NCBI GenBank assembly: GCA_913774665.1
Contig: CAJYHN010000013.1
Coordinates: 62,001-126,000, forward strand
Reading direction: 5' to 3'
DNA: 64,000 bases
Source: an uncultured Microbacterium sp.
Lineage (GTDB): Bacteria > Actinomycetota > Actinomycetes > Actinomycetales > Microbacteriaceae
Shown: piece by piece, positions 16,506 to 46,423 of the stretch
How the letters are laid out: every line of letters begins with the position of its first letter
How positions within the stretch are numbered: position 1 is the stretch's first letter
Position numbers and translations under genes: made by a program
The notes under the pieces: model-generated
Told to the model about the DNA's origin: nothing
Database searches by the model: none
The model's input: the letters and a program-made list of their open reading frames with translations, nothing else

Positions 16506-17184
16506 GGCCGACGACGACACCCCCGCCTTCATCGCCCCGGTGGCGATGGAGAACGACCCCGACGCGCTCTTCGCCGGAGACCGCGGCACGCTCGACGCCG
16601 ACGTGCGGCGTGTGCTCGTGCGCATCCTGCAACGACGCTTCCTCGTCGCCGAGAACTCCCCCGCCGAGTGGAAGCTGCTGCTCGCGCACCAGCAGATGAT
16701 CGAGTCGCGCCTCAACGACCTGTTCGTGCGGCTCGTCGTCGACCACGCCCGCGGTGTCGCCTACAAGGAGCAGGTTCGCAGCGACGAGCTCGACGTGCCG
16801 ATCCTGCTGAAGGACGAGGCGTATTCGCGCGCCGAGACGCTCGTCCTCGTCTACCTGCGCACCGTATTCCAGCGCGAGACGACCGCGGGCACGGCATCCG
16901 CCCGTGTCGACGTCGAGGAGGTCGAGCAGACCGTGCTCACCTACTTCAGCGAGACCGACGGCACCCGCGCGAGCCAGCAGCGGGCGGTGCGCACCGCGAT
17001 CGCGCGCCTCGACCGCGAGGGCATCATCGAGGAGGAGTCCGAGGGGCGCTACCGCATCGGGCCGCTCATCGAGATCGTGCTGAGCGCCGAGGTGCTGCGC
17101 GATCTGCAGCGGTGGTTGGAGGAGCAGGTGACGGATGCCGCGGCATCCGCCCCCGCCGACACGCTCGAGGAGGAACTCGTATGA
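16492..17184 (+). CDS. jetB: JetB/MksE-like KITE subunit (DUF4194)
   Basis: 230 residues with the DUF4194 pattern: [34 protein letters not shown], and the winged-helix [20 protein letters not shown] that marks these KITE-type proteins. It binds the kleisin JetA and regulates the SMC motor JetC. ATG at 16492 and ATG at 16498 are both possible and differ by two residues. The last codons overlap the jetC start in ATGA at 17181, giving translational coupling. The operon position between DUF3375 and the SMC ATPase is the conserved one. Confidence 0.88.
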
Positions 17185-20100
17185 CCATGCTCGAGACGCT
17201 GTTCGGGCTGATCCCCGCCGCCTCGCGCGGTCAGCAGTGGGTCGCCGAAGACCTGCAGCTGATCAACTGGGGCGGATACGACGGCACGCACCGCGTGCGT
17301 TTCGCGCCGACCGCGACGCTGCTGTGCGGCGGCTCGGGGTCGGGCAAGTCGACGCTCATGGACGCGTACGTCGCGCTGATGATGCCGCACACCACCCCCT
17401 TCAACGGCGCCTCGAACGGTGCGGTCGTCGGGCGCCCGCGCGGGCAGGAGCAGCGCAACATCCTCTCGTACGGCCGCGGCAAGCTCGACGAGTCGCGCAC
17501 CGACGAGGGCACCAAGGTGCGGGTGCTGCGCGGCGACGGCGTCGACACGTGGACCGCGATCGGCATGACCTGGGCCGACCACGACGGTGCACGGTTCACC
17601 GCGGTGCGGGCCTGGTACTTCCCCGCCGCCGCCCGCACGCTCGACGACGCCGTCAAGGTGCGCGCGAGCGTGCACGGCGCGTTCGACCTGCGCCAGCTCG
17701 AGCGGGCGGCGCAGAGCCACCTCTCCGACTCCGCGGTACGGGCCACGGGCCTCGACACCCTCGCGACCGACCGCGAGTTCTCGGCGCGGCTGCACGCGGT
17801 TCTCGGCATCGGGGCGGCGGGAGCGGGGACGAAGGCGATGAGCTTGCTCGCGCGCATCCAGGCCGGTCAGCAGATCACCACCGTCGACGACCTGTACAAG
17901 CGCATGGTGCTCGAGGAGCCCGAGACGCTCGCGGTCGCCGACGCCGTCGTCACACACTTCGACGGCCTCGAATCGACGCGCACCCGCATGCTCGAAGCCC
18001 GCCAGCAGGTGCGGGCGCTGCAGCCCATCCGCGGGATGAAGACACGCATCGACGACGCGGCCGAGCGCCTGCGCCTCATCGACGCGCTCGGGCGCCTCGG
18101 CGACCCCGACTCGCGCGCCTCGCTCTGGCGCGCCCAGCGCCGGGTCGACCTGCTCGGCGCCGTCGAGGCAGAGCTGCGTGATCGTACACACGCCACCGAT
18201 GCGCTCGTGCGCGAACGCCAGGCCCTCGCCGACGCCGCCGAAGCGGAGCGCGAGGGGCTCGGCGATGTGCTGCGCGCGGCCGGCGGCGATCGACTCGACG
18301 CCGCCCAGCGCGAGCTGCGGAACCTCGAGCGGCGCCTTGCCGGCATGCAGCGCGACCGCGAGCGGTTCGAAGCGGCGCTCGCGGTGCTGTCGACCGAGGT
18401 GTCGTCCGAGAAGCAGTTCGCCGCGCTCGTCGAGGAGGCCCGGCAGACCCTGAGCGACGCGGATGCGAAAACCGCCGTGCGCGACGCGTTCGTCGCCGCG
18501 AGCAGCCGGCACACCGATCTGCGCCAGCAGCTGTCCGCCCTCGAAACAGAGCACCGGCGCACGCAGACCCGCGACGACAACATCCCCCCGCGCCTGCACG
18601 AGGCCCGTGAGGCGCTGGCCGAGGCCGCCGGGCTGACCGCCGCCGAGCTGCCGTTCGTCGCCGAGCTCGTCGACGTCCGCACCGAGTTCGAGCCCTGGCG
18701 CGGGGCGTTCACCCTCGCCCTGGGCGGATTCGCGACGACGCTGCTCGTGGATGCCGCACACCTGGCATCCTTCCGCTCCGCGATCGACGGCGTTCGACTG
18801 TCGGAGCGCCTGCGGTTCGAGGGCGTGTCGACCGACCTGCCCGAGCGCACCGGGCTCGACCCCGCGACGCTGCCGGGGCGCCTGGAGTACCGGCGCTCCC
18901 CCTTCACCGGGTGGCTGCAGGACCGGCTCGATCAGCAGTTCGCCTTCGTCTGCGTGGATGCCGTGGCCGAATTGTCGCGGCACCGCATGGCGCTGACGAT
19001 CTCGGGGCAGACGAGCCAGGGCGCGCGCGGTGCTCACGGCGGGTCGATCCGTCACAGCGTTCTCGGGTTCTCCTCCCGCGTGCGGCTGACAGAGCTCGGC
19101 GAGCAGATCGTCACGGTGCGCCGGGATCTGACCGCCGCCAAGGCCGCGGTCGACGAAGCCGCGGCCGCCCTCGACGCGTTCGACGAGCGGCGCGGCGCGT
19201 ACGAGAAGATCGCCGACCTGACTTGGGACCAGGTCGACGTGGCATCCGTCCAGCGCGAACTCGACCGCTGGAACGAGACGATCGTCGAGATCACCGCCGG
19301 AAACCCGCGGATCGCCGAACTGCAGGAACAGATCTCGGGCACCCGTGCCCGCGCCGCGCGTCTGCGGGAAGAGATCGGCGGGGCCAAGACCGAGCAGCAG
19401 GCGCTCGCGGCGCGGTGGGCGCAGATCACCGACGACGTGGATGCCGCGCACGTGCGTCTCGAACGCGCCGAGGACTCGGGTCTCACGCTCACCGACGACG
19501 AAGCGGGCTATCTGGACAGCCTCTTCGTGGCGCCCGGTTCGTCCGACGCCACGCCGTCACAGCAGCTCGCCCGATTCGACGCGGCCCTGGAGTCGGCGTC
19601 GAAGCGTCTGCTCGAGGAGCAGCGCGCGGCGCAGGAGACGTGGGCCGACCAGCGCGAGAGCCTCCGCCGCACGATGACCGCGTTCACCGACCGGTGGCCG
19701 AGCCCGAACCTGCTCGCCGACCCCGACGAGTCGCTCGGCGACTTCGAGCGGATCCTCGCCGACCTCGAGGCCAGCGGCCTGCACGAGCTCGAGGCGGAGT
19801 GGCGCGACTCACTGCTGCGCCTGTCGGGCAACGACCTCACGAGCCTCGACTCCGCTCTCACCCGGGCCCTGCGCGAGATCCGCGAGCGGATTGCGCCGAT
19901 CAACGACATCATGCGGGACCTTCCGTTCTACGACGACGAGCACCGGCTGCAGATCGTGCCGCGCGAGAGCCAGTCGGAGGTGCGCAAGCGCTTCCGCCGG
20001 GAGCTCCGCGACGTGCGAGCCGCGATCGACGCCGCCTCATCGGATGAGGAGCGCGAAGCCGTGTACGGGCGGATGGCGCGGCTCATCGGCCGCATCCGGC

Positions 20101-20534
20101 CGACCGCACCCGACTTCGCCGACCTCGTCGACGTGCGCAACCACGTGCGGGTCAGCGCCGAGCGCTTCCGCGCCGACACCGGCGAGCACGTCGCCCTCTA
20201 CGACCACATCGGCGAGAAGTCGGGAGGCGAGTCGCAGGAGCTCATCGCCTTCATCGTCGGCGCTGCGCTGAGGTATCAGCTCGGAGATGCCGGTGCGGAG
20301 CGGCCGCGATACGCGCCCGTCTTCCTCGACGAGGCGCTCATCAAAGCCGACGCGCACTTCACCAAGCGCGCGATCGGCGCGTGGCGCGGACTGGGCTTCC
20401 AGCTCGTCATCGGGGCGCCGAACGACAAGTACAGCGCGATCGAGCCGCACGTCGACGTCGAGTACGACATCCTCAAGGACACGCGCGGCCGATCGTGGGC
20501 GAAGGCGAAGGTGGCATTACCGGCCGGGAGCTGA
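17181..20534 (+). CDS. jetC: JetC/MksB-like SMC ATPase of Wadjet system
   Basis: 1117 residues, the size of JetC proteins. The Walker A motif is GGSGSGKST (about residue 50) after FAPTATLLC. Two long coiled-coil arms (about 270-480 and 640-900) flank a hinge region that contains [19 protein letters not shown]. The ABC signature [12 protein letters not shown] and Walker [13 protein letters not shown] lie near the C-terminus, so the ATPase appears intact. The complex extrudes DNA loops; with JetD it cleaves small plasmids. Here the gene ends at 20534 and the next 93 bp hold no recognisable jetD; an unrelated minus-strand ORF follows. Coding style matches its neighbours, so there is no sign of recent transfer. 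Confidence 0.92.
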
Positions 20535-22619: not shown

Positions 22620-22814
22620 ATGTCGGAGAACCCCACCCCCATCGAGCTGCAGAAGTACCTCGGCGGAGTCGACTACCCCGCGACGAAAGACGACCTCGTA
22701 CGGATCGCCCGCGGAAACGGCGCCCCCGACGACCTCGTCTCCGCTCTCGAGGGCGCCGACGCGGACTCGTTCGACGGCCCCACCGCCGTCAGCCGCGCCC
22801 TCGCCGGCGACTGA
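22620..22814 (+). CDS. DUF2795 small protein
   Basis: 64 residues beginning SENPTPIELQKYLGGVDYPATKDDLVRIA, the recognisable DUF2795 pattern (a helical module, hydrophobic and Asp-rich, with alternating conserved Leu and Ala). GGAAGGA stands six bases before ATG 22620. The function of the family is not established. Its stop is two bases before the GTG of the GT2 gene, so the two are likely in one transcript. Confidence 0.8.
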   Translation: MSENPTPIELQKYLGGVDYPATKDDLVRIARGNGAPDDLVSALEGADADSFDGPTAVSRALAGD

Positions 22815-22816
22815 CG

Positions 22817-23671
22817 GTGCGCGACCGGCGCGGCTCGGGCGAGTGGGCCGCCGCCCGCCCGCGATCGCCCGCGCTCATCGACGTGCTGATCCCCACGGTG
22901 GGCCGCGTCGCCGAACTCGCCGTGACCCTCGCCGGCCTCGCCGCGCAGGACGCACCGTCGTTTCGCGTCGTGGTGAGCGATCAGTCGGACGAGGGTCTCA
23001 CGAACGCCCCCGCGGTCCAGGCCATGGCACGGGTGCTGCGCGCCCAGGGGCGCGAGGTGACGATGCTGCGCCACCTCCCGCGCCGCGGTCTCGCCGAGCA
23101 TCGACAGTTCCTGCTCGAGCACGCCACGGCCGACGCGCTGCTCTTCCTCGACGACGACGTCTGGCTCGAACCCGGCGCCTTGTCGTGCCTGCATGAGGCG
23201 CTGACGGAGCTCGCGTGCGGCTTCGTCGGCATGGCGGTGCAGGGCCTGTCGTACCTCGACGACGAACGCCCCGCAGAACGCACGGCGTTCGAGACCTGGG
23301 ACGGCCCCGTCTCGCCGGAACGCATCCGCCGCGGGACGCCGGCCTTCGACCGGTGGCCCTTGCACAACGCCGCCAACCTCGCGCACCTCGCGCGCGACGT
23401 GCCGCTCGGGCCTCGGGGGTGGCTCGCGTACAAGGTCGCGTGGATCGGTGCGTGCGTGCTCTACCGACGATCGGCCTTGACGGATGCCGGCGGGTTCGCG
23501 TTCTGGTCGGAGCTGCCGCCCGAGCACGCCGGCGAAGACGTCGCCGCGCAGTGGCGGGTCATGGAGCGCAGCGGTGGAGCCGGCATCCTGCCGAGCGGGG
23601 CGGTGCATCTCGAAGCGCCCACGACGATCGCCCGACGCGACATCGACGCGTTCGACGTCGTCGTGCGGTGA
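22817..23671 (+). CDS. Glycosyltransferase family 2
   Basis: 284 residues with a GT-A fold pattern: IDVLIPTVGR at the start of the first strand, VVVSDQSDEG, the donor-binding LFLDDDVWLEPG (DxD motif) near residue 112, and a later EDVAAQW near residue 243 where the catalytic-base Asp/Glu is expected. No TM segment, so it acts in the cytoplasm. The GTG at 22817 is two bases after the DUF2795 stop. It lies 1.8 kb upstream of the heptose/GT9 cluster and may contribute to the same glycan, but a sigma factor gene separates them. Confidence 0.82.
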   Translation: MRDRRGSGEWAAARPRSPALIDVLIPTVGRVAELAVTLAGLAAQDAPSFRVVVSDQSDEGLTNAPAVQAMARVLRAQGREVTMLRHLPRRGLAEHRQFLLEHATADALLFLDDDVWLEPGALSCLHEALTELACGFVGMAVQGLSYLDDERPAERTAFETWDGPVSPERIRRGTPAFDRWPLHNAANLAHLARDVPLGPRGWLAYKVAWIGACVLYRRSALTDAGGFAFWSELPPEHAGEDVAAQWRVMERSGGAGILPSGAVHLEAPTTIARRDIDAFDVVVR

Positions 23672-23761: not shown

Positions 23762-24490
23762 ATGATCGGATCCGCACCCGCGAACGAGAGCGCCGAGCGC
23801 CTCACGTTGGACAACCTCGCCCTCGCGAGGTCGGTGGCACGACGGTTCTTCTCGCGCTCGACGACGCGCGACGACGACCTCGTGCAGGTCGCCTACATCG
23901 GCTTGTGGAACGCCGCGCGTCGGTTCGACCCGGCGCGCGGGACGAGCTTCGCCGCCTTCGCCGTGCCGACCATCTCGGGCGAGATCAAGCGCCACCTGCG
24001 CGACCACGGGTGGTTCGTGCGTCCGCCGCGGACGGTGCAGGATCTGCGGGCGCGAATCGGCGAGGCCTCGCCCCGCCTGACCCAGAAACTCGGGCGGCGG
24101 CCCTCGGTCGCGGAACTGACGCTCGAGCTCGACTCGTGCGACGACCTGGTGCGCGAGGCGATCGACAGCCGTCACTCCCTCCGCCCCTCGTCGCTCGACA
24201 TGCCGGTGGGGACGGACGGCGAATCCACCCTGGCCGACGTGCTCTCCGACGATGGCGAGCAGCTCGAGCGCGTCGAGCTGGCGGCGGTGCTGAGCGCGGC
24301 CCAGAGCGTCCTCGCGCCGCGGGAGCGGCGCGTCATCCGGTTGCGGTTCTTCGAGGACCGTACGCAACAGGACATCGCCGACCAGCTGGGGGTGACGCAG
24401 ATGCAGGTCTCGCGCATCCTGACGAAGTCACTCGCCCTGCTGCGCGACAGCATCGCCCGCGGGCCGCGGTCGATGGCGGCCGCCGGCTGA
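23762..24490 (+). CDS. SigB/SigF-type alternative sigma factor
   Basis: 242 residues from ATG 23762. Region 2 carries LVQVAYIGLWNAARRFDP and FAAFAVPTISGEIKRHLRDHGW. Region 3 is short (LTQKLGRRPSVAEL) and region 4 ends EDRTQQDIADQLGVTQMQVSRI, a normal -35-binding HTH. This layout is that of general-stress or sporulation-type group 3 sigma factors. No anti-sigma gene lies beside it. A TTG at 23714 in frame would add 16 residues but is part of TTGACA and reads a hydrophobic tail, so the ATG is preferred. It probably controls a stress regulon elsewhere. Confidence 0.88.
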   Translation: MIGSAPANESAERLTLDNLALARSVARRFFSRSTTRDDDLVQVAYIGLWNAARRFDPARGTSFAAFAVPTISGEIKRHLRDHGWFVRPPRTVQDLRARIGEASPRLTQKLGRRPSVAELTLELDSCDDLVREAIDSRHSLRPSSLDMPVGTDGESTLADVLSDDGEQLERVELAAVLSAAQSVLAPRERRVIRLRFFEDRTQQDIADQLGVTQMQVSRILTKSLALLRDSIARGPRSMAAAG

Positions 24491-24580: not shown

Positions 24581-25552
24581 TCAGCCCGGGCCGGGCAGCA
24601 GGACGCGACGCGCCCCCGCGAGCACCTGATCGACGGTCACGGCCAGCAACGCCGGGTCGGGATCGTCCGCGAACGTCTCACCACGGCGTCGGGAGGCATC
24701 GGTCAGCACGAGGTGCGGCCCCGGCGGCGGCCCCCAGTTCTCGGGTGCCGCCGGACCGAACAGCACGACGGAGGGCCGCGCGTATGCGGACGCGAGGTGC
24801 GCCGCCCCCGTGTCGGCGGAAACGACGAGACGCGCGTCTTCGACGAGGGCGGCGAACTCGGCGAGGTCCAGCGCGCCCGCGAGCACCGCCTCGTCGCCGA
24901 AGCCGGCCGCACGCGCCACCGCCAGCGCGCGCGGGCGCTCGGCGACGCTGCCGGTGAACACGACGCGGTGACCTTCGTCGCGCAGCGACCGGGCGACGGC
25001 GGCGAAGCGATCGACGGGCCACCGGCGCGAGCCGTAGAACGCTCCGACGTGCAGCACGCTCGCCCCCTCGATCCCGGTGCGGCGCGGACTGGAGGCCAGT
25101 GCCACCTCGTCGGGGTCACCGGGCACGCCGAACGCCTCGACGAGGCGGACCCAGCGACGGCGCTCGAGCAGGTCCGGGATCCAGGGCGGCATCCGGGGGT
25201 CCGCCGGAGCGTCGCCGTCGATCTCGGGCACGCGGTGGGCGATCGTCTCGCGCGCGGCCAGCAGATCGACGAGACCGCGGCTCTCGGGACCGCTGCCGTG
25301 CAGGTTCACCGCGACGTCGACACGACCGGGCGCGACCGGCAGAGGCTCGTCGAGCCCGGGTGTGGGAAGCAGAGCGTCGACGACGTCGATGAGCTCGACG
25401 ATCGGCTCGAGCCATCCGGGGACGGCGAGCACGAGACGGTGATCAGCAAAGCCGCGGCGCAGCGCGCGGAGGGCGGGGACCGCGACCAGCAGGTCTCCCA
25501 GCTTCAGCGCGCGCAGGGCGAGCACCTCGGGTCGGTCGTCGGCCTCGGTCAT
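24581..25552 (-). CDS. Glycosyltransferase family 9 (heptosyltransferase-like), copy 1
   Basis: 323 residues. The N-terminal half begins VLALRALKLGDLLVAVPALRAL, the GT9 hallmark (D of LGDLL as the catalytic site in WaaC/WaaF). The C-terminal half has VVFTGSVAERP and LVVSADTGAAHLASAYARPSV, the donor-binding segment with its conserved DTG-H. GT9 enzymes move ADP-heptose or related sugars to glycan acceptors in the cytoplasm. It is transcribed away from the GmhB-like gene and starts 96 bp from it; a shared promoter region is likely. ATG 25552 is preferred over GTG 25561. Converges with the sigma factor gene. Confidence 0.87.
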   Translation of the reverse strand: MTEADDRPEVLALRALKLGDLLVAVPALRALRRGFADHRLVLAVPGWLEPIVELIDVVDALLPTPGLDEPLPVAPGRVDVAVNLHGSGPESRGLVDLLAARETIAHRVPEIDGDAPADPRMPPWIPDLLERRRWVRLVEAFGVPGDPDEVALASSPRRTGIEGASVLHVGAFYGSRRWPVDRFAAVARSLRDEGHRVVFTGSVAERPRALAVARAAGFGDEAVLAGALDLAEFAALVEDARLVVSADTGAAHLASAYARPSVVLFGPAAPENWGPPPGPHLVLTDASRRRGETFADDPDPALLAVTVDQVLAGARRVLLPGPG

Positions 25553-25647
25553 GGGATGCACGGCGCCAGCATCGCACTCCGGTCGCCGCCGCGCATCAGG
25601 ACGACGACGTGGTTTGAGCTGTGCCGGAAGTGGGCACGAGCAGGAGT

Positions 25648-26208
25648 ATGGCCGCTCCCTCCGGAATCCGCGCCGTGCTGTTCGACCGCGACGGCACGCT
25701 CGTGGTCGACGTGCCCTACAACGGCGACCCGGCGCGGGTGGAGCCCCTGCCGGGTGCGGTAGAGGCCGTACGCCGGGCGCGGGCGGCCGGGCTCCGTCTC
25801 GGCGTCGTGTCGAACCAGTCGGGCGTCGCCCGCGGCATCCTCACGACCGCCGACGTGGAGGCGGTCAACGCCCGCGTCGACGAGATCATCGGCCCCTTCG
25901 ACGTGTGGGCGTACTGCCCGCACGCCGACATCGACGCCTGCTCCTGCCGTAAGCCCGCGCCCGGTCTGGTGCAAGAGGCATGCAGAGCGCTGGGGGTGGC
26001 GCCCATCGACACGGTCGTCGTCGGCGACATCGGTTCCGACGTCGACGCCGCGCGCGCCGCCGGGGCCCACGGCATACTCGTCCCCACCCCCGCCACCCGC
26101 GCGGAGGAGGTGGCGGATGCCGATGTGGTCGCCGCCGACCTCGGCACCGCCGTCGGGATGATCCTCGGCATCCCCTCGCGCGGGGCGACGGAAGCGGTGT
26201 CGCGGTGA
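25648..26208 (+). CDS. gmhB: HAD-IIIA phosphatase, GmhB-like (heptose bisphosphate phosphatase)
   Basis: 186 residues. Motif I is AVLFDRDGTLVVD (nucleophile Asp and acid Asp), motif II VVSNQSG, then the Zn-loop CPHADIDACSCRKP typical of GmhB, and motif IV VVGDIGSDVDAA. GmhB removes the 7-phosphate... or 1,7-bisphosphate product at C7 during ADP-heptose synthesis; the Cys/His loop is the diagnostic feature. The start is uncertain: ATG 25648 gives the usual short N-terminus, GTG 25621 and 25630 are in frame. Its stop overlaps the next GT9 start by 4 bp (GTGA). Context with GmhA and HldE supports the assignment. Histidinol-phosphate phosphatases share this fold, so it is a strong but not unique match. 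Confidence 0.82.
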   Translation: MAAPSGIRAVLFDRDGTLVVDVPYNGDPARVEPLPGAVEAVRRARAAGLRLGVVSNQSGVARGILTTADVEAVNARVDEIIGPFDVWAYCPHADIDACSCRKPAPGLVQEACRALGVAPIDTVVVGDIGSDVDAARAAGAHGILVPTPATRAEEVADADVVAADLGTAVGMILGIPSRGATEAVSR

Positions 26209-27287
26209 ACCGCCGGTTGCTGGTGGCGCGGCTCGACAGCCTGGGCGACGTGCTGCTGTGCGGACCGGCCGTGCGCGCGATCGCCGCCGCGCCCGACGTC
26301 GACGAGGTGTGGATGCTCTGCAGCTCGATCGGCGCGGAGGCCGCCCGCGCCCTTCCCGCCGTCGACGAGGTGCGGGTGTGGGACAGTCCGTGGATCACCG
26401 TGACCGCTCCGCGAGCGACACGAGCTCATCTCGCCGCCCTCGACGCGATCGTGGCGGAGGCGGCCCCGGATGCCGCGGTCATCCTCACCTCGTTCCACCA
26501 GTCGCCGCTCCCTCTCGCGCTGGCGTTGCGCCTGGCCGGGGTGCCCCTCATCGCCGGGGCATCGGTCGACCACGCCGGGACGCTGCTCGACGTGCGCCTG
26601 AGGCCGGGCGAGGATCTCGTCGAGGACCAGCCGGAGCCCGCGCGCGCCCTCGCGATCGCCGCCGCCGCGGGGTTCGCGCTGCCGCCCGGTGACGACGGCC
26701 GCCTGCGGATGCGGGTCGACGCCCCCCTGCCGGCGGAGCTCGCGGCCCTCGGCACCTACGTCGTCGTGCACCCGGGAGCGGCCGCCCCGGCCCGCCGGTG
26801 GCCGACGACCGCGCACGCCGAGGTCGTTCGGATGCTGCATGCCGCGGGCGTCGCGGTCGTGGTGACCGGCGGGCCGGAGGAGCGCGAGCTCACCGCCCAC
26901 GTGTCGGGTGCCGGCCGTCATGGCCTCGACCGCGGGGGGCGGACCGGGCTCGCGGAGCTGGCGGCGACCCTCGCCGGAGCCGCCGTGGTCGTGGTCGGCA
27001 ATACCGGGCCCGCGCACGTCGCCGCTGCCGTGGGCACGCCCGTGGTGAGCCTGTTCTCCCCTGTCGTCCCCTCGGTGCGATGGGCGCCGTACGGGATCGA
27101 GCACGTGATGCTCGGCGATCAGGAGGCGCCCTGCCGCGACTCCCGCGCGCGCGAGTGTCCGGTACCCGGACACCCGTGCCTGGCATCCGTCGCCCCGGTC
27201 GACGTCGTCGACGCGGTGTTCGCCCTCGCCCCCGACCTCCGGGGGCGTGCGGCGACCGCGCCCGCCCGCGAGCAGGTGGGCGCATGA
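26205..27287 (+). CDS. Glycosyltransferase family 9 (heptosyltransferase-like), copy 2
   Basis: 360 residues. N-terminal motif [21 protein letters not shown] is canonical for GT9. The second half has [24 protein letters not shown] and [21 protein letters not shown], which bind the nucleotide-sugar. A C-terminal Cys cluster ([17 protein letters not shown]) near residues 310-330 is also found in Gram-negative heptosyltransferase relatives. Starts GTG 26205 in a 4-bp overlap with the phosphatase and overlaps the next gene by 4 bp. Likely adds a heptose or similar sugar to a cell-surface glycan. Confidence 0.88.
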
Positions 27288-28276
27288 GAGTGCTCCTCTG
27301 GCACGTGCACGGCGGGTACACCGACGCGTTCGTCCGCGGCCGGCACGAGTACCTCCTGCCCGTCGACGCGGCGCGCGACGCGTGGGGCGGCGGTCTGCTC
27401 GGCCGCGACTGGCCCGCGGCGCGCGAGGTCCCCGTCGAAGAACTGCACGACACCGACATCGACGTCGTCGTCCTGCAGCGCCCCGAAGAGATCGCGCTGG
27501 CGGAGCGATGGACCAGCCGCCGGCCTGGACGCGAGCTGCCGGCGATCTACCTCGAACACAACACCCCCAAAGCGCACCCCACCGACACGAGGCACCCGAT
27601 CGCCGACCGCGACGACATCGTGCTCGTGCACGTGACCCACTTCAATCGGCTGTTCTGGGACAACGGCCGCGCACCGACGCGGGTGGTCGAACACGGCGTG
27701 CCCGACCCCGGTGCGCTCTACACCGGCGAACTCGCCCGGGCGGCGGTCGTGGTGAACGAGCCCGCGCGCCGAGGCCGCATCACCGGCACCGACCTGCTCC
27801 CCCGCTTCGGCGCGGTGGCCCCGGTCGACGTGTTCGGAATGGGCGCCGAGCCCCTCGCCGCACTGCCGGGCGTGACGCCCGCGGGCGACCTCCGCCCGGA
27901 ACGGCTGCGGGTGGAGCTGGCGCGCCGCCGCCTCTACCTGCACCCGCTGCGGTGGACCTCGCTCGGGCTCGCCCTGCTGGAGGCGATGCACCTGGGGATG
28001 CCGGTGGTCGGGCTCGCGACGACCGAGGCGCCGCGCGCGGTCCCTCCCGAGGCCGGACTGTTCACGAACGACCTCGATGCGCTCGCACGCGAGATCCGCG
28101 CACTGATCCGCGACCCGGAGCTCGCCGCGGAACGGGGTCGACGCGCCCGCCGACACGTCCTCGAGCACTACGGCCTCGAGACGTTCCTGCACACCTGGGA
28201 TGCCGTGCTCGCCGACACCGTCGACGGCCGGCGGGTCTCGGCATCCCCCCACCTCGACGAGAGGAGCGCACGATGA
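27284..28276 (+). CDS. GT4-like glycosyltransferase
   Basis: 330 residues with a GT-B fold pattern. The N-terminal half has [17 protein letters not shown] and [11 protein letters not shown]; the C-terminal half has [28 protein letters not shown], which is the donor-binding E-x7-E-like segment of GT4 (E in LLEAMH). It is shorter than most GT4 enzymes, with a brief middle linker. No TM or signal peptide. It is in the 4-bp-overlap chain of the heptose operon. The sugar and acceptor cannot be told. Confidence 0.8.
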
Positions 28277-29517
28277 AGATCTCGATGGTCTCGGAACACG
28301 CCAGCCCCCTGGCGACGCTCGGCGGCGTGGACGCCGGCGGTCAGAACGTGCATGTCGCCGCGCTGTCGTCGGCGCTCGCGGCGCGCGGCCATGCCGTCAC
28401 CGTGTACACGCGCCGCGACGACCCCGGCCTCGACGAGCGGATGCCGCTGTGTCCCGGCGTCGAGGTGGTGCACGTGACCGCGGGGCCGGCCGCGGTTCTG
28501 TCGAAGGATGACCTGCTCCCCCACATGCCCGAGTTCGCCGACCGCCTGGCCGCGCACTGGCGTGCGGAGACGCCGGAGCTCGTGCACAGTCACTTCTGGA
28601 TGTCGGGGATCGCGGCCCTCGACGCGGCCCGTCGCCCGGACGGCGTCCAGGTGCCCGTCGCCCACACGTTCCACGCGCTCGGGGTCGTGAAGAAGCGGCA
28701 CCAGGGCGACGACGACACGAGTCCGCCGGAGCGCGAGGCCCTGGAGCCGGACGTGGGGCGGCGCGCCGACACGGTGGTGGCGACGTGCTCCGACGAGGCG
28801 TTCGAGCTCATCCGCCTCAGAATCCCCTCATCGCGCATCTCGGTCGTCCCGTGCGGGGTCGACACCGACCTGTTCCGGCCGGAGGGACCCTCGGCACGCC
28901 GCGCGCGCCGGCATCGCATCATGACCGTGGGACGCCTCGTTCCGCGAAAGGGTGTGGGAACGGTGATCACCGCGCTCGCGCGCCTCGCGCGCGACGATGT
29001 CGAACTGGTCGTCGTCGGCGGCTCTCGCGACGAAGAACGCGTGCACGAAGACCGCGACGTGCAGCGGCTCGCCGCGCTCGCCCGCGCCGAGGGCGTCGAG
29101 CACCTCGTCCGTTTCCGCGGCCAGGTGGCGCGATCGGAACTGCCCACCCTGCTGCGCTCGGCCGACCTCGTGGTCTGCGCCCCCTGGTACGAGCCGTTCG
29201 GCATCGTGCCACTGGAGGCGATGGCGACGGGCGTGCCCGTGGTCGCCACCGCCGTCGGCGGACTGATCGACTCGGTCGTGCACGGGGCCACCGGCCTGCA
29301 CGTCCCCCGTCGGGACGCGGATGCCATCGCCCGCGCGGTCGCGACACTGCTCGACGACCCCGCCGGCCGCGCCGAGCTGGGCCGCGCCGGCGCCGACCGG
29401 GTGCGCAGCCGCTACACGTGGGACCGGGTCGCCGCCGACACGGAGCGCGCGTACCGGCGGATGCTGTCGCGGCGCCGCCTCGAGCCCCGCTCCGCACACG
29501 GGGCGGTGACCCGATGA
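28273..29517 (+). CDS. GT4 glycosyltransferase (MshA/sucrose-synthase-like)
   Basis: 414 residues, GT-B fold. The N-terminal loop [19 protein letters not shown] is the pattern of MshA-like and sucrose-phosphate-synthase-like GT4 enzymes. [19 protein letters not shown] (donor loop with Arg and Lys), and [19 protein letters not shown] (E-x7-E) follow in order. Starts at ATG 28273 within the 4-bp overlap. It is probably cytoplasmic and adds a hexose to the same glycan as the GT9 enzymes. MshA itself would sit with mycothiol genes, which are not here. Confidence 0.87.
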
Positions 29518-30137
29518 GCACCATCTCGCCCCCGCGTCGCGGCATCGCCGGCGTGCTGCACGCCCACGTCGACTCCCACACCGAGACGGTCGACGCGCTG
29601 CGCGAGCGGCTGCCGACGCTCGTACGATGGGGACAGGAGCTCGCCGACCGGCTGATGGCGGGCCACCGTCTGCTCGTCGCCGGCAACGGAGGGTCGGCGG
29701 CAGAGGCCCAGCACCTCACCGCCGAGATCGTCGGCCGGTTCGACGGCGAACGTCGGCCGTTCTCGGCACTGTCGCTGCACGCCGAATCATCGAGCGTGAC
29801 GGCGATCGGCAACGACTACGGCTTCGCCGAGGTGTTCGCGCGCCAGGTGCGGGCGCACGGCCGGTCGGGCGACGTGCTGCTGCTGTTCTCGACCAGCGGG
29901 CGGAGCGAGAACCTCGTGCAAGCAGCCGACGCGGCAACGGATCTCGGGATGCGGGCGTGGGCCCTGGCCGGCGGCGGCCCGTCGCCGCTGTCGCAGCGGT
30001 GCGACGAGCACATCGCCCTGCCCGGCACCCCGGCGGCCGTCCAGGAGGCGCACCTGCTGGCCCTGCACCTGCTGTGCCGCGTCTTCGACGCTCGGGTGCG
30101 CGGCGCCGACGCCACCGGGAAGGGGACGCGGTCGTGA
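29514..30137 (+). CDS. gmhA: Phosphoheptose isomerase GmhA (SIS domain)
   Basis: 207 residues. The SIS fold shows [20 protein letters not shown] at about residues 58-77, the diagnostic GmhA loop, followed by [17 protein letters not shown] and [13 protein letters not shown] with the conserved His of the active site. GmhA converts sedoheptulose 7-phosphate to D-glycero-D-manno-heptose 7-phosphate, the first step of ADP-heptose synthesis. It lies between the GT4 and HldE-like genes with 4-bp overlaps at both ends. Length and motifs are standard. Confidence 0.92.
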
Positions 30138-31525
30138 AGATCACCGTGGTCGGAGACGTGCTGCTCGACGCCGACATCGGCGGCCACGCCGACCGACTGA
30201 GTCCCGACGCCCCCGTCCCCGTGGTCTCGATCGAGGCCACCGAGCAACGGCCCGGCGGCGCGGGTCTGGTGGCGGCCCTCCTGGCGCACGACGGTGCGGA
30301 GACGAAGCTGGTGACGGCGCTCGCCGACGATGCGCACGCCGCGCAGCTACGTCGCCTGCTCGCCGCGATCGATGAGGCATCGGCGGGATCGCTCCGCGTC
30401 GTGGCAGGCCTCTCGCCGTCGCCCACCCCGGTGAAGACCCGGGTACACGCCGGAGCGCACGCGGTCGTGCGAATCGACGAGGCCTGCGACCTGCCGGGTC
30501 CACCCCCGGTCACCGCCGCGATGCTGACCGCGCTGGACGACGCCGACGCCGTGGTGGTCGCGGACTACGGCCGCGGTCTCGCAGCCGATCCGGTCATGCG
30601 GGCCGCGCTCCGCCGTACGGCGGACCGTGTGCCCGTCGTGTGGGATCCGCACCCGCGCGGCGCCGACCCCGTCCCCGGGGTGACCGTGGCCACCCCGAAC
30701 CTCGCCGAGGCGCGGACCGCCTCCGGGGTCTCGGCGACCGGATTGACCGGGGCCGGCGATGCCGCCGACATCCTGGTCGATCGCTGGCGCAGCCGCAGCG
30801 TCGTCGTCACCCTGGGAGAGCGCGGCGCACTGTTGAGAAGACGCGGGTCCACGGATGCCGTGCCGCACGTCGTCCCTGCGGCACCCGTCGCGTCCGCAGA
30901 TCCCTGCGGGGCCGGCGACCGGCTCGCGGCGTCGCTCGCGGTCGCTCTCGCCGACGGCGCATCCCTGCCCGCTGCCCTGCAGGCAGCGGTGGCCGCCGCC
31001 GGCCGCTTCCTCGCGTCGGGCGGGGTGCGGGCGCTCACGGCATCCCCGCCCGTCTCCTCGATGTCCACCGGTGGCGACGCGGAGGCCGTCGCGCGGGCGG
31101 TGCGGGCGCGGGGCGGCACCGTCGTCGCGACCGGCGGGTGCTTCGACCTCCTGCACGCGGGACACGCCCGCACCCTCGCCGCCGCGCGGGCTCTCGGCGA
31201 CTGCCTCGTCGTGTGCCTCAACAGCGATGACTCGGTGCGCCGTCTGAAGGGGCCCGAGCGCCCCATCATGACGCAGGACGACCGCCGCGACCTGCTTCTC
31301 GCCCTGGAATGCGTCGACGCGGTCGCGATCTTCGACGAGAGCACTCCCGAAGCGGTGCTGCGCCGACTGACCCCCGCCGTGTGGGTCAAGGGCGGCGACT
31401 ACGTCGCCGCCGACCTGCCCGAGACCGCCGTCATCGCCGAGTGGGGCGGTCGAACGGTCACCGTCCCCTTCCACCCGGGCCGTTCCACGACCGCCCTCGC
31501 CGGCGCCCTCGCCCGCGTCGGTTGA
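30134..31525 (+). CDS. hldE: HldE-like bifunctional heptose-7-P kinase/heptose-1-P nucleotidyltransferase, variant copy
   Basis: 463 residues, two domains. The PfkB-type kinase (about 1-310) starts VVGDVLLDADI and contains the anion-hole motif DPCGAGDRLAASL (catalytic Asp). The usual GGAANTA substrate motif reads PGGAGLVAALL, so the Asn is missing. The nucleotidyltransferase (about 325-463) has GCFDLLHAGHARTL, the HxGH active site, RRLKGPERPI and WVKGGDYVAADL. Together they phosphorylate heptose 7-phosphate at C1 and then attach ADP. It is the last of the tightly overlapping chain. A second, more canonical copy lies at 33421-34899. The two may use different sugars. Confidence 0.87.
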   Translation: MKITVVGDVLLDADIGGHADRLSPDAPVPVVSIEATEQRPGGAGLVAALLAHDGAETKLVTALADDAHAAQLRRLLAAIDEASAGSLRVVAGLSPSPTPVKTRVHAGAHAVVRIDEACDLPGPPPVTAAMLTALDDADAVVVADYGRGLAADPVMRAALRRTADRVPVVWDPHPRGADPVPGVTVATPNLAEARTASGVSATGLTGAGDAADILVDRWRSRSVVVTLGERGALLRRRGSTDAVPHVVPAAPVASADPCGAGDRLAASLAVALADGASLPAALQAAVAAAGRFLASGGVRALTASPPVSSMSTGGDAEAVARAVRARGGTVVATGGCFDLLHAGHARTLAAARALGDCLVVCLNSDDSVRRLKGPERPIMTQDDRRDLLLALECVDAVAIFDESTPEAVLRRLTPAVWVKGGDYVAADLPETAVIAEWGGRTVTVPFHPGRSTTALAGALARVG

Positions 31526-31564
31526 GGCGCGGCATCCCTTCCCCATCCTCGAAAAGGAGCTCGC

Positions 31565-32263
31565 ATGTCCGCTGATCGACCCCTCGGAACCGTCCTCATC
31601 ACCGGCGGCGCGTCCGGCCTCGGTGCAGCCGTCGCCGCGGCCGTCCGCGACGGCGGGGGCACCGCCGTCGTGCTCGACCTCGACGTCAGCGCGGTAGACG
31701 CACCGGACGCCTACGCCTGCGACGTGGCCGACACGCGCGCGACCGAGCAACTCGTGGCCGAGCTCGCCCAGACCTACGGCGGGCTCGACTCCGTGGTCAC
31801 CGCGGCGGGGATCGACCGACCGGCGCCCCTCGACGGCATCGACGGTGCCGCGTGGGAGCGCATCGTCGCGGTCAACCTGCTGGGCACGGCCGCGGTCGTG
31901 CGCGCGGCCCTGCCCGCCCTCACCGACCGTCACGGCCGGGCGGTGCTCGTCGCCTCGTCGCTGGCGATCCGTGCGCTCGGCGATGCGACCGCCTACACCG
32001 CCTCGAAGTTCGGGGTGAAGGGCTTCGCCCGGTCTCTCGCGGCCGAGACGAAGGGCCGCATCGGGGTCACCACCGTGTTCCCGGCCGGAATGCGTACGCG
32101 CTTCTTCGAGGGGCGCGACGAGCAGTACAAGCCCGGCCCCGACGCGAACCTGATCGACCCGCGCGAGGTGGCGGACGCCATCGTCTTCGCCCTGCGCCAG
32201 AAGCCCGGCGTCGAGATCCGCGAGCTCGTCATTTGCCCCGAAGACGAGCCGTCGTGGCCATGA
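31565..32263 (+). CDS. Classical short-chain dehydrogenase/reductase (SDR)
   Basis: 232 residues. The cofactor site TGGASGLGAA and the active-site Tyr/Lys in YTASKFGVKGFARSL with preceding Ser in VASSLAIR are all present. This is a classical SDR, too short and with the wrong motifs for the extended-SDR epimerase HldD, which would be expected to turn D,D- into L,D-heptose. AAAAGGAGC-type spacing upstream (AAAGGAG, six bases before ATG 31565) is a strong ribosome site. It follows hldE by 39 bp, so it probably modifies a sugar or nucleotide sugar of this cluster. Its 3' end overlaps the convergent GT9 gene by 35 bp. Confidence 0.87.
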   Translation: MSADRPLGTVLITGGASGLGAAVAAAVRDGGGTAVVLDLDVSAVDAPDAYACDVADTRATEQLVAELAQTYGGLDSVVTAAGIDRPAPLDGIDGAAWERIVAVNLLGTAAVVRAALPALTDRHGRAVLVASSLAIRALGDATAYTASKFGVKGFARSLAAETKGRIGVTTVFPAGMRTRFFEGRDEQYKPGPDANLIDPREVADAIVFALRQKPGVEIRELVICPEDEPSWP

Positions 32264-33359
32264 GCGAGGCGAGGGCGGCCGCGTCCTCGTAGACGGCATC
32301 CACCTCCACGTCCGTCACGAACGAGTCGTCGTGCGCGCACCGCTCGGCGGTCCAGCCGACCTGGGTGACATCGCGGCCGCACACCGGGCACCGGGTGGTC
32401 CACGACAGGTGCACCCGGTGCAGCGCCCGGGTCAGCGGTCCGCCGTTGATGAGGTTCCCCACCCAGTACACCGCGACGGTGGGTGCGCCCACCGCCTGCG
32501 CGAGGTGGCGGGGACCACTGTCGTTGCCGACGAAGACTTCGGCCACCGACAGGACGCCCGCCAGCTCCGGCAGCGTCAGCCGCCCGGCGACCGAAGCCAC
32601 GGCGCCGCCCGCTCGGCGCCCGGCCTCCGCGGCGACGCCATTCGCGATCGCGGCGTCGGCCCCGTCGCCCACGACGATCACCCGCATGCCGTCGGCCGCG
32701 AGCCGCACCGCGAGCTCGACGAAACGTTCGGCGGGCCACCGGCGACGCGGGTCGGTCGCCCCGGGGTGCAGCACCGCGAGCCCGTCGCGGCAGTCTCCGA
32801 TCACCTCGAGCCCGGCCAGGCGTTCCCGGGGTGAGACCGTGACGTGCGGCTCCTCGGGACCCGCGATCGCGCCGGCGAGGGCGGCGATCTCGCGCCAGCG
32901 CACCATCTCGTGCTGGTAATAGACGTAGGGCAGATTGCGCTCGAGCGGAGCCGCATCGGGCATCCGTGCGCCCACGGTGTGCCGGGCCTGCACGCCCAGC
33001 AGGAACGGGTTCGAGTAACGGCCCCCGCCGTGCATCTGGCAGGCCAGATCGAAGCGTTCCGAACTCATGCGCTGCAGGAAGCGCCCGACGGCCGGGGCGT
33101 CGTCGGCCTCGTCGGGGCCGTGCACCCCGCGCGCCGGGGGGAGCGTCTCCACACGCGCGACGGGACCGGGTCGCCCGTCGAGCAGGGCTGCGGCGAGGGG
33201 CGTACCCAGCAGGACGATCTCGGCCTCGGGATACGCCCACGACAACGCGTCGATCGCGGGTAGCGCGAAGAGCAGATCGCCCAGACCGCCCCCGCGCAGC
33301 ACCGCGATCTTGAGCACGTCGGCGAAGGGCCCGTCATCGCTCCGCAGGATCGCCTCCAC
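32229..33359 (-). CDS. Glycosyltransferase family 9 (heptosyltransferase-like), copy 3
   Basis: 376 residues. N-terminal motif KIAVLRGGGLGDLLFALPAI is canonical. The second half has VLHPGATDPRRRWP, VIVVGDGAD and VFVGNDSGPRHLAQAVGAPTV, the nucleotide-sugar site. A C-terminal CPVCGR near residue 330 with nearby Cys recalls a zinc knuckle, not usual in this family. GTG 33359 follows GGGAGGA by six bases. It is divergent from the second hldE gene (62 bp between starts) and convergent with the SDR gene with a 35-bp overlap. Confidence 0.87.
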   Translation of the reverse strand: MEAILRSDDGPFADVLKIAVLRGGGLGDLLFALPAIDALSWAYPEAEIVLLGTPLAAALLDGRPGPVARVETLPPARGVHGPDEADDAPAVGRFLQRMSSERFDLACQMHGGGRYSNPFLLGVQARHTVGARMPDAAPLERNLPYVYYQHEMVRWREIAALAGAIAGPEEPHVTVSPRERLAGLEVIGDCRDGLAVLHPGATDPRRRWPAERFVELAVRLAADGMRVIVVGDGADAAIANGVAAEAGRRAGGAVASVAGRLTLPELAGVLSVAEVFVGNDSGPRHLAQAVGAPTVAVYWVGNLINGGPLTRALHRVHLSWTTRCPVCGRDVTQVGWTAERCAHDDSFVTDVEVDAVYEDAAALASLMATTARLRGK

Positions 33360-33420
33360 GTGCCGTCCTCCCCTCACGAGCACCCGTTCCCCCCGCGCGG
33401 GCGGTTCAAACCTTCTCCGC

Positions 33421-34899
33421 ATGACCGACGCCCCCGAGGGGTACCGGACGACCATGACCGACGACATCCTCGACGCGTTGCGTCGACGCCCGCCGCGCGT
33501 CACCGTCGTGGGCGACGTGATCCTCGACCGGTGGGTCCGCGGCACCGTGCGACGGGTCAGTCGCGAAGCCCCCGTGCCGGTGGTCGACGCGCGCACGGTC
33601 GAGACGTCCGCGGGAGGCGCGGCGAATACCGCGGTCAATCTCGCCGGTCTCGGAGCACGGGTCGAGCTCGTCTCGGTGGTGGGTCGGGATGCCGAAGGCG
33701 CCGAACTCGTCCGCCTGCTCGAGACGCACGGCGTCGGCGTGAGCGGGGTGGTGAGGACAGCGGACGGTGTCACCGCGACGAAGACGCGCGTCGTCGGTGA
33801 GGATCAGGTGCTCGTGCGGGTCGACCGCGCGCCGACCGCCGCTCCCCCGGGCGCCCACGACGCGGCTCTCGCCGCCATCGCCGACGTCGACGCGCTGCTG
33901 GTGTGCGATTACGGCGGGGGTCTCTTCGACGACGCGTCCGCCGAACGGATGTCGCTCCTGAACGCGCGTCCCGGGCTCGTTCTCGTCGATGCGCACGACG
34001 TCGCGCGCTGGGCGATGCTCCGGCCCGACGTCGTCACGCCCAACGCCCTCGAGGCGGAGCGACTGCTCGGTGAGCTGCTGACACCTCCCCGTCGGGATGC
34101 CGTCGCCTCGGCCGCGGCGCGCATCCTGAGCGCTGCGGGTTCCGCGACGGCGGTGGTGACGCTCGACGCCGAGGGGACGGTCGTGCTCGAAGGCGGACGG
34201 GCGACCGGTCGGACGCGCGCCGTTCCGGCGGCGGAGCAGCACGCCTCGGGCGCGGGCGACACCTTCGCGGCCGCGCTCGCGCTGGCGCTGTGCGTCGGGG
34301 TCTCGCTCCCCGACGCCGCCGCGTTCGCGCAGCGTGCCGCCGACGTCGTGGTCGGTCGTCCCGGGACGGCCGTGTGCACGACCGCCGATCTCGAGGTCGG
34401 TCCCAGCCTGCTCGACCACGCCGAGCTCGCCCGCCGCGTCGACGAGGAACGGGCACGCGGTCGCCGGATCGTCTTCGCGAACGGGTGCTTCGATCTCATC
34501 CACCGGGGCCACACGTCACACCTGCACCAGGCGAAGGCCTGTGGCGACGTTCTCGTCGTGGCCCTGAACGACGACGCATCGGTCCGGCGTCTGAAAGGCG
34601 AGGGTCGTCCGGTGAACCCCCTAGCCGAACGCGCCGCCGTGCTGCACGAACTCGGCTGCGTCGACTTCGTCACCGCGTTCGACGAGGATTCGCCGGTCAG
34701 CCTGATCGAGCGGCTCCGCCCTGAGATCTACACGAAGGGCGGCGACTACACCGCCGAGATGGTGCCCGAGGCCGACGCGGTCCGCCGCTACGGCGGAGAG
34801 GTGCGCATCCTCGACTACCTCCCGCACCGCTCGACGACCGCGACGATGGCGCGGATCATCGCGGGACGAGCCCCGGGCGGAGGAGCCACCGCGACGTGA
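33421..34899 (+). CDS. hldE: HldE-like bifunctional heptose kinase/nucleotidyltransferase, canonical copy
   Basis: 492 residues. The kinase half (about 20-330) begins VTVVGDVILDRWVRG and has the canonical SAGGAANTAVNLAGLG substrate motif and ASGAGDTFAAALALAL with the catalytic Asp. The transferase half (about 350-492) has FANGCFDLIHRGHTSHL (HxGH), RRLKGEGRPVN and IYTKGGDYTAEMV. Both match RfaE/HldE of ADP-heptose synthesis. ATG 33421 and ATG 33454 are both in frame; neither has a strong ribosome site. With gmhA and gmhB this completes the route to ADP-D-glycero-D-manno-heptose. Confidence 0.9.
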   Translation: MTDAPEGYRTTMTDDILDALRRRPPRVTVVGDVILDRWVRGTVRRVSREAPVPVVDARTVETSAGGAANTAVNLAGLGARVELVSVVGRDAEGAELVRLLETHGVGVSGVVRTADGVTATKTRVVGEDQVLVRVDRAPTAAPPGAHDAALAAIADVDALLVCDYGGGLFDDASAERMSLLNARPGLVLVDAHDVARWAMLRPDVVTPNALEAERLLGELLTPPRRDAVASAAARILSAAGSATAVVTLDAEGTVVLEGGRATGRTRAVPAAEQHASGAGDTFAAALALALCVGVSLPDAAAFAQRAADVVVGRPGTAVCTTADLEVGPSLLDHAELARRVDEERARGRRIVFANGCFDLIHRGHTSHLHQAKACGDVLVVALNDDASVRRLKGEGRPVNPLAERAAVLHELGCVDFVTAFDEDSPVSLIERLRPEIYTKGGDYTAEMVPEADAVRRYGGEVRILDYLPHRSTTATMARIIAGRAPGGGATAT

Positions 34900-45499: not shown

Positions 45500-46423
45500 A
45501 TGCCCTCACGCCCCTTCTCCGGCCTCGCCCTCGCCGCTTTCGCCGGACTCGCGCTCGTGCTGTCCGGGTGCGCCGGTGGCGCGGCATCCACCTCCGATTC
45601 GACAGACACCGCGACGCACGAGGTCGCGCACGCCCGTGGCACCACCACGGTGAGCGATGCTCCCCAGCGCGTGGTCACGCTCGAGCCACTCGAGCTCGAC
45701 ACCGCGGTCGCGGCCGGCATCACCCCGGTCGGCGCCGCCGTCGCCAACATGGTCACGGGCGTGCCGAGCTACCTCGGGGTCGAGGGCGTCACGCCGGTCG
45801 GCACCGTCAGCGAGCCCGACCTCGAGGCGATCGCGTCGCTCCAGCCCGACCTGATCCTCGGAACCGAATCCCGGCACTCGGCCCTCTACGACCAGCTCAG
45901 CGCGATCGCTCCGACGGTGTTCATCGCCACGCAGGCCGATCCCTGGCGCGACAACGCGGCCCTCATCGGCGAGGCTCTCGGCCGCGAGGGCGAGGTGAAG
46001 AAGGCGGTGGATGCCGTCGACACCCGCTGCGGCGAGATCGCGGCCGCGCACAAGCTCGCGGGCAAGACCGCCGAGATGATCCGCCCGCGCGACGAGACGA
46101 CGCTGAGCCTCTACGGTCCGGTCTCGTTCGCCGGGAGCCTGCTCGAATGCGTCGGCTACACGATCCCCGACCACGCATGGAAAGACGGACTGCAGGCCGA
46201 CATCTCGCCCGAGAACATCGCCAGCGCCACCGCCGACGCTGTCTTCGTCACCACCACCGACGTCGCCGACCGCTCGACGATTCCGGCCGCGATCGCGCAG
46301 AACACGGCGGCGTTCCCCGTCGTGACGCTCGTCGACACGAGCACCTGGGTCGCGGGAGTCGGGCCCAAGGGCGCGCAGTCGGTGCTCGACGACATCGAAA
46401 CCTTCCTCGCCTCCGCGAAATGA
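45500..46423 (+). CDS. Iron-siderophore ABC transporter substrate-binding lipoprotein
   Basis: 307 residues. The lipoprotein signal ends in LVLSGCAGG, with lipid-modified Cys. Class III periplasmic-binding fold follows: RVVTLEPLELDTAVAAGI, LQPDLILGTESRH, then IAPTVFI and the long middle helix. FecB/FepB-type receptors bind ferric siderophores outside the membrane and give them to the permease. AAAGGA stands nine bases before ATG 45500 and an IdeR box lies just upstream. Its stop overlaps the first permease by 4 bp. Confidence 0.93.
   Translation: MPSRPFSGLALAAFAGLALVLSGCAGGAASTSDSTDTATHEVAHARGTTTVSDAPQRVVTLEPLELDTAVAAGITPVGAAVANMVTGVPSYLGVEGVTPVGTVSEPDLEAIASLQPDLILGTESRHSALYDQLSAIAPTVFIATQADPWRDNAALIGEALGREGEVKKAVDAVDTRCGEIAAAHKLAGKTAEMIRPRDETTLSLYGPVSFAGSLLECVGYTIPDHAWKDGLQADISPENIASATADAVFVTTTDVADRSTIPAAIAQNTAAFPVVTLVDTSTWVAGVGPKGAQSVLDDIETFLASAK

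Follow-up and report, generated by a model that had tools for sequence, protein, structure and literature searches.

A two-module gene cluster related to the Streptomyces coelicolor cwg operon, with a predicted heptosyl-glycan product and predicted general-stress promoters, in an uncultured Microbacterium

The cwg operon of Streptomyces coelicolor, SCO6179–SCO6190, is controlled by σE and, according to the available excerpts of two studies, includes a putative phosphoheptose isomerase and a bifunctional synthase/transferase (PMC5839063, PMC6767563). It has been recognised as a σE target since 2002, and its product is described in the available part of one study just as a predicted cell wall glycan (PMC6767563). 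Beyond the annotation of cwgH as a putative phosphoheptose isomerase in the excerpt at hand (PMC5839063), no text linking the operon to ADP-heptose was found, subscription literature lying outside the search. Here we describe a gene cluster in a 64,000-nucleotide stretch of DNA (the window; 71% G+C) from contig CAJYHN010000013.1 of an uncultured Microbacterium sp. We conclude from gene content and order that this cluster is a relative of the cwg operon, which is its closest known system. The explanation that we favour, and consider probable, is a cwg-type cluster for a heptosyl glycan, made up of two modules and under the control of a general-stress sigma factor. The relation to cwg, the two-module make-up and the SigB/SigF-type promoter motifs go beyond an earlier, sequence-only reading of the same DNA.

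A search of 295 genomes of one genus with the published cwg promoter gave an exact 29-base match in a single genome (locus L205) and matches with one or two mismatches in five more. In L205, 12 genes in a row start 147 bp downstream of the exact promoter, a distance equal to that published, in the order EpiS, CarbT, GT2s1, GmhB, GT9b, GT4x, GT4y, GmhA, HldEa, GT9a, GT2s2 and GT2s3. This row agrees with the 12 published cwg locus tags and their annotations. Seven of its genes have orthologues in the window at 44–59% identity, six of them in the same order, and the orthology and order of these genes are thereby established. One of the five near matches, with a single mismatch, was also fetched (L206); GT2s1- and GT4y-like genes stand alone there, as if the operon were decaying.

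Open reading frames were called by codon use, and all positions are those of the window. Pfam scans took in 29 of the 56 called window proteins, these being the cluster genes and their neighbours. The ten genes at 24581–34899 (Table 1) all score above the Pfam gathering score, each for the expected family, and the gene content that had been read from the sequence, namely GmhA, GmhB, two HldEs, three GT9s, two GT4s and an SDR, is thus established. The GT9 fold family PF01075 is matched by GT9a, GT9b and GT9c. Four pairs of genes overlap by 4 bp (GmhB/GT9b, GT4x/GT4y, GT4y/GmhA and GmhA/HldEa), and GT9b and GT4x are 2 bp apart. The cluster extends past these limits, the GT2 and DUF2795 genes being part of it in relatives. 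The GT2 gene is a conserved neighbour, lying directly after HldEb in relatives, with identities of 58–72% in actinobacteria and 51% in a Bacteroidota metagenome-assembled genome (MAG).

The proposal of an ADP-heptose route with GT9 enzymes in an actinobacterium has held up in the ranking of the NCBIfam models, though nearly all their cut-offs are missed (see below): the top-ranked models are those of the heptose pathway for GmhA, GmhB and both HldEs and those of lipopolysaccharide (LPS) heptosyltransferases for the three GT9s. The nearest solved structures by sequence are phosphoheptose isomerases, the heptose-7-phosphate kinase HldA, an HldC-type nucleotidyltransferase, GmhB and, for the two GT9s searched (GT9b and GT9c, with GT9a left out), GT9 proteins including WaaF and WaaC. 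The CPH..C.CRKP loop of GmhB aligns with PDB entry 4pnh. With GmhA, HldE and GmhB present and their active-site motifs in place, we predict an ADP-heptose pathway, at the level of family only. No HldD scored over the cut-off in the whole genome (best 79.7 against 274.6 bits), and the D,D form of the heptose, suggested earlier from the apparent lack of an HldD-type epimerase, is plausible. GT4y resembles MshA but is not MshA itself, the MshA model scoring 247.6 bits against a cut-off of 462.5.

Gene order in relatives, and in named contigs of Cellulomonas, Amycolatopsis, Actinoalloteichus and a Nocardia MAG, divides the cluster into module A, GmhB–GT9b–GT4x–GT4y–GmhA–HldEa–SDR–GT9a, and module B, GT9c–(ALDH)–HldEb–GT2–DUF2795, the ALDH being added in relatives. 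Module B genes occur without module A in stretches of about 20 kb (L016, L028, L031 and L033; L025 covers just 3.3 kb), and module A occurs without HldEb in 23 of 29 stretches from a phylum sample, each of at most 20 kb and some cut by contig ends. Conservation across the Microbacteriaceae, as raised by the sequence-only reading, is seen in part of the family and is patchy: a full-length relative of HldEb is present in 11 of 60 genomes, that of the window included. A contig recorded as Microbacteriaceae (L026) also holds this cluster. Ten of these 11 also have a second HldE, which in one is the kinase part only. In a maximum-likelihood tree of 64 HldE rows, the bootstrap of which was not fully settled, HldEa (36 rows) and HldEb (19 rows) form separate clades, each with 100/100 support. 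We conclude from the tree and the gene order that the window has two HldEs because a cwg-type module A has been joined to a separately inherited module B. A recent tandem duplication of HldE was rejected, as the clades are separate and fully supported and the modules also occur apart. That one HldE is a dead enzyme was rejected on motifs, both keeping the GAGD aspartate (36/36 HldEa and 19/19 HldEb) and GCFDxxHxGH, the fixed residues of which are found in all rows.

In the window, module B is rearranged, with no ALDH between GT9c and HldEb and with GT2 and DUF2795 placed upstream of the sigma factor gene that adjoins the cluster. ALDH is held in the stretches of all nine other two-module genomes of the family, and the best match to it elsewhere in the genome of the window is 34% identical. 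The end branch of the window HldEb is longer (0.8) than those of its family neighbours (0.38–0.58), and this is the sole two-module cluster of the family without an ALDH in the fetched stretch. In total the genome encodes three HldE-type proteins, one of them on a different contig (C14) and in another group of the tree, outside the HldEa and HldEb clades. The locus of this third HldE (L012) holds a GT9, HldE, GmhA and GmhB set among genes that by eye appear to be acyltransferase, GtrA-like, GT2 and DegT-like, and is probably a surface polysaccharide locus.

Both modules are probably transcribed in this family from predicted SigB/SigF-type promoters. The motif GTTT-N15-17-GGGNA, which we take to be the SigB/SigF-type consensus, forms three distinct sites in the window (four overlapping matches), where 1.04 would be expected by chance, and two of these are the putative gmhB and GT9c promoters. 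Over the window, the family loci and L026, L108 and L139, 15 of 24 gmhB or GT9c cases have the motif upstream, against 3 of 326 other genes; it was first noticed in these loci with a looser pattern, so that the 15/24 is not an independent test. A test with the motif fixed was made on the neighbours of module-A clusters, cluster genes excluded, in the 20 of 29 phylum-sample genomes with contig room for controls. The motif is enriched in these neighbours: it was found in 30 of 204, against 1 of 366 and 3 of 378 genes in two control regions per genome (4/744 together), or, for genes with at least 60 bp of intergenic sequence, in 24 of 130 against 4 of 425. At least one site was present in 12 of 20 loci, compared with 1/20 and 3/20 for the controls. 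Ten of the 30 motif-bearing neighbours were scanned with Pfam and proved to be CsbD (twice, once below cut-off), DUF2267, ChaB, topoisomerase IB and hemerythrin proteins, a sigma factor, a zinc dehydrogenase, an epimerase-type protein and one without a family. A sigma factor gene lies within three genes of the cluster in six of the ten two-module genomes of the family (that of the window included), and perhaps this neighbouring factor acts on the promoters. A σE pattern able to recover the cwg promoter has a strict match upstream of GT2 and a loose one upstream of GT9c, each lying within a neighbouring gene, and gave no intergenic match before any operon-first gene of the window cluster.

Besides the way in which the motif was first noticed, several points weigh against the favoured explanation. 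The heptose models rank first, and of the heptose-specific ones just TIGR02199 in HldEb reaches its curated cut-off: PRK13936 scores 165 of 276 bits, PRK08942 117.5 of 178, PRK11316 275 and 337 of 521 for the two HldEs and TIGR02199 176.5 of 181.5 in HldEa, and all GT9s of the cluster miss the LPS heptosyltransferase equivalog cut-offs (WaaC, WaaF and WaaQ). Related genomes in the motif counts are not independent of one another. Among cluster neighbours in the same family the motif is rare (1 of 189 'other' genes), and stress-marker proteins gave a weak signal by BLAST, with matches at 5 of 20 loci and at 1 of 20 control regions (p = 0.09). In four of the ten two-module family genomes, the stretch fetched around the cluster showed no SigB/SigF-type sigma factor gene. 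Five Streptomyces-type cwg loci carry the motif in 1 of 91 genes, in keeping with σE there, and the S. coelicolor cwg operon is itself a σE target, as the available excerpt states (PMC6767563).

The identity of the sugar donor was approached through the distribution of GT4x, the marker of module A. Full or nearly full relatives are present in 30 of 296 phylum-sample genomes (that of the window included). In the genus searched for the cwg promoter, 34 of 101 genomes give a match at E ≤ 1e-20, and a few of these matches are partial. Relatives of the cluster span many actinobacterial families and extend to Burkholderiaceae and one Bacteroidota MAG. GT4x is lacking in one genome of the same genus and two of the same family in the phylum sample, and the cluster is therefore patchy. 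Among 72,556 plasmid records there were 14 matches, 10 of them from Burkholderiaceae, and all 14 loci were fetched. The 10 Burkholderiaceae loci (29–31 kb each) all hold GT4x, GT4y and GT9, and CarbT, EpiS, GT2s1 and GmhB are each found in nine. GmhA or HldE was found in none of these fetched stretches, the rest of the genomes lying outside the search. HldE is present in 34 of the 37 fetched actinobacterial loci found through GT4x. These 37 are made up of 29 phylum-sample loci, four from plasmid records and four taken from the 34 genus matches; 11 loci reached by way of HldEb and one reached by way of the promoter are not counted. The three loci without HldE are two contigs of less than 5 kb (L142, a partial match, and L165) and a Clavibacter plasmid with an isolated GT4x. 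Makers of LPS heptose supply ADP-heptose anyway. The lack of GmhA and HldE in the Burkholderiaceae loci fits ADP-heptose as the donor for the cluster glycosyltransferases, because LPS synthesis would supply it. EpiS is annotated as a UDP-glucuronic acid decarboxylase in the six Burkholderiaceae records whose gene table shows it, and some of the loci adjoin genes for manganese catalase, Hsp20 and ferritin-like proteins.

The strongest alternative is a heptose-containing envelope polymer, whether a cell-wall, S-layer or glycoprotein glycan, for which genes outside the cluster would provide export and anchoring. Envelope glycan loci commonly hold sets of GT4, GT2 and GT9 genes. In the excerpts available, cwg is induced by vancomycin in a partly σE-dependent manner (PMC6767563) and salt addition activates the first gene of the operon (PMC13011467), as might be expected of such a product. 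The surface polymer or S-layer-type glycoprotein glycan of the sequence-only reading nevertheless finds no support as a self-contained system, because no gene for export, polymerisation or anchoring, be it a flippase, polymerase, LCP ligase, oligosaccharyltransferase or S-layer protein, is among the scanned window proteins. The genome has the separate HldE/GmhA/GmhB/GT9 locus beside polysaccharide-type genes, and the same glycosyltransferase set occurs in the Gram-negative Burkholderiaceae, in some records beside the catalase, Hsp20 and ferritin-like genes. We rate an envelope product with export genes outside the cluster below the favoured explanation, and as less likely than not.

The kinase domain of HldEa offers a second alternative. 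Its GGAxN motif reads GGAxL (35) or GGAxM (1) in all 36 HldEa rows, that of the cwg operon included, while among the 28 other HldE rows (one protein being present twice) the residue is Asn in 26, Ser in one and a gap in one. Leu45 of the window HldEa stands opposite an Asn in the alignment with HldA of known structure; in the alignment with ribokinase the Asn does not fall opposite Leu45. The Asn is presumably a sugar contact, as in ribokinase. The HldEa/CwgI kinase may then have a changed substrate, so that module A would activate another sugar while HldEb would make the standard one. HldEa is without its adenylyltransferase domain in L024 and L029, both of them two-module loci holding HldEb, and no such loss was met in any module-A-only locus whose contig covers HldEa; the kinase domain may therefore have a role that HldEb does not fill. 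These domain losses are just two, however, and the role of the Asn is presumed. Moreover, GmhA and GmhB accompany HldEa in most loci, and HldEa is the sole HldE of the cluster in module-A-only stretches, so that it probably still handles heptose phosphate. We regard a non-standard sugar as rather unlikely. In an Arthrobacter plasmid (L108, 15094–16531) the HldEa matches lie in separate pieces, as if the frame were broken, and the adjoining HldEb looks whole.

Small-molecule heptosides are exemplified by the heptoses of septacidin and hygromycin B. That the cluster decorates a secondary metabolite would suit the lack of export genes, the SDR and, in relatives, the ALDH and carbamoyltransferase, but it is very unlikely, given that no polyketide synthase, non-ribosomal peptide synthetase or aminocyclitol core gene is among the scanned window proteins and that the genes are spread over many actinobacterial families, Burkholderiaceae and a Bacteroidota MAG.

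For the favoured cwg-type heptosyl-glycan cluster, we infer the enzyme activities, promoter use, acting sigma factor and stress role from homology and motifs as follows. GmhA would convert sedoheptulose 7-phosphate to D-glycero-D-manno-heptose 7-phosphate, from which the HldE kinase domain would form the heptose 1,7-bisphosphate; GmhB would remove the 7-phosphate, and the HldE adenylyltransferase domain would yield ADP-D,D-heptose. The GT9 enzymes would transfer the heptose, and the GT4 and GT2 enzymes would finish an oligosaccharide or glycoconjugate in the cytoplasm. Module A has its core in common with the S. coelicolor cwg operon, module B has an HldE of its own, and both would be transcribed from SigB/SigF-type promoters, perhaps through the neighbouring sigma factor. 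A wider proposal, which we put forward as speculation and think unlikely as a whole, is that the product of cwg-type loci is a heptosyl glycoconjugate induced by stress, in many cases carbamoylated and neither LPS nor wall polymer, that is common to actinobacteria, Burkholderiaceae and some Bacteroidota, and that the CwgI/HldEa kinase has a changed substrate, so that some actinobacteria would have two ADP-activated sugars.

If the cwg operon and its widely distributed relatives are read as an ADP-heptose pathway, there is a defined sugar to search for, and the promoter data point to general stress as the condition in which to search. The animal innate sensor ALPK1 recognises ADP-heptose, and a Gram-positive source of it would matter to immunology too. 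New here are the absence of GmhA and HldE from the ten Burkholderiaceae loci, the enrichment of SigB/SigF-type motifs and the replacement of Asn by Leu or Met throughout HldEa.

Table 1. Features of the cluster in window coordinates; functional names are predictions from family membership
Feature	Position	Strand	Evidence
DUF2795 small protein, module B	22620..22814	+	Pfam DUF2795 8.7e-20; after HldEb-GT2 in relatives L013, L017, L018, L022
GT2 glycosyltransferase, module B	22817..23671	+	PF00535 1.7e-12
SigB/SigF/SigG-type sigma factor adjoining cluster	23762..24490	+	TIGR02980 228.7 bits, just below cut-off 234.35
GT9a, heptosyltransferase-family, module A	24581..25552	-	PF01075 3.8e-23; matches cwg gene 10, 44% to L205 copy
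SigB/SigF-type promoter motif GTTT-N16-GGGNA 5' of gmhB	25612..25636	+	
GmhB, heptose bisphosphate phosphatase, module A	25648..26208	+	PRK08942 4.6e-34, below cut-off; PDB 4pnh 1.5e-22
GT9b, heptosyltransferase-family, module A	26205..27287	+	PF01075 1.7e-24; GT9 structures 3tov, WaaC, WaaF
GT4x, module A marker glycosyltransferase	27290..28276	+	Pfam match
GT4y, MshA-like GT4 glycosyltransferase	28273..29517	+	Pfam, NCBIfam
GmhA, sedoheptulose-7-phosphate isomerase	29514..30137	+	PRK13936 1.5e-48, below cut-off; PDB 1tk9 6.2e-39
HldEa (CwgI clade), kinase with Leu45 and intact adenylyltransferase motifs	30134..31525	+	
SDR oxidoreductase, module A	31565..32263	+	PF00106 1.8e-33; not found in cwg operon locus L205
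GT9c, heptosyltransferase-family, module B	32229..33359	-	PF01075 3.2e-27
SigB/SigF-type promoter motif 5' of GT9c	33387..33411	-	
HldEb, canonical heptose kinase/adenylyltransferase, module B	33421..34899	+	PRK11316 1.3e-100; TIGR02199 187 bits, cut-off 181.5

GT9c has an invariant CxxC-N13-CxH motif, possibly a metal site; all 10 proteins aligned have it, those of actinobacteria and of the Bacteroidota MAG included. The motif resembles the TibC iron finger, but the match to TibC itself is marginal, and TibC-like protein heptosylation by GT9c was rejected on a profile search that gives WaaF at 4.8e-23 and TibC at just E = 0.25. In a crude 19-residue hydropathy scan, the cluster maxima reach 1.85, far below the 2.52 of a neighbouring exchanger. 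The usual guide value is 1.6, which the cluster maxima exceed, and the absence of membrane helices was dropped as an argument. Elsewhere in the window, Wadjet-type JetA, JetB and JetC lie in a row at 15030–20534, with no JetD among the ten proteins scanned, and an iron-siderophore uptake operon at 45500–49302 consists of a binding protein, two FecCD permeases and a siderophore-interacting protein. One induced 'heptosyltransferase' gene of a Frankia salt study could not be tied to this cluster from the excerpt available (PMC5563000).

Comparison with the known systems places the cluster closest to cwg, with which it shares GmhB, GT9b, GT4x, GT4y, GmhA and HldEa in the same order, plus GT9a. It differs in not having the full 12-gene set, EpiS, CarbT, GT2s1 and the two last GT2 genes being absent from the window cluster; CarbT has no match in the whole genome, while the same query matches other loci at 64–79%. 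The window adds the SDR and module B, and its putative intergenic operon promoters carry the SigB/SigF-type motif and no σE-like match. With the Gram-negative LPS pathway, GmhA–HldE–GmhB, it shares all three enzyme types and their aligned motifs; it differs in the lack of an HldD over the cut-off in the genome, in GT9s that fall below the LPS heptosyltransferase cut-offs and in having two divergent HldEs, one with an altered kinase motif. The GT9–GT4–carbamoyltransferase loci of Burkholderiaceae, for example Burkholderia multivorans and Paraburkholderia, resemble it in GT4x, GT4y, GT9 and, in nine of ten, the GmhB-like HAD protein, and differ from it in holding CarbT and EpiS homologues (9/10) and no GmhA or HldE.

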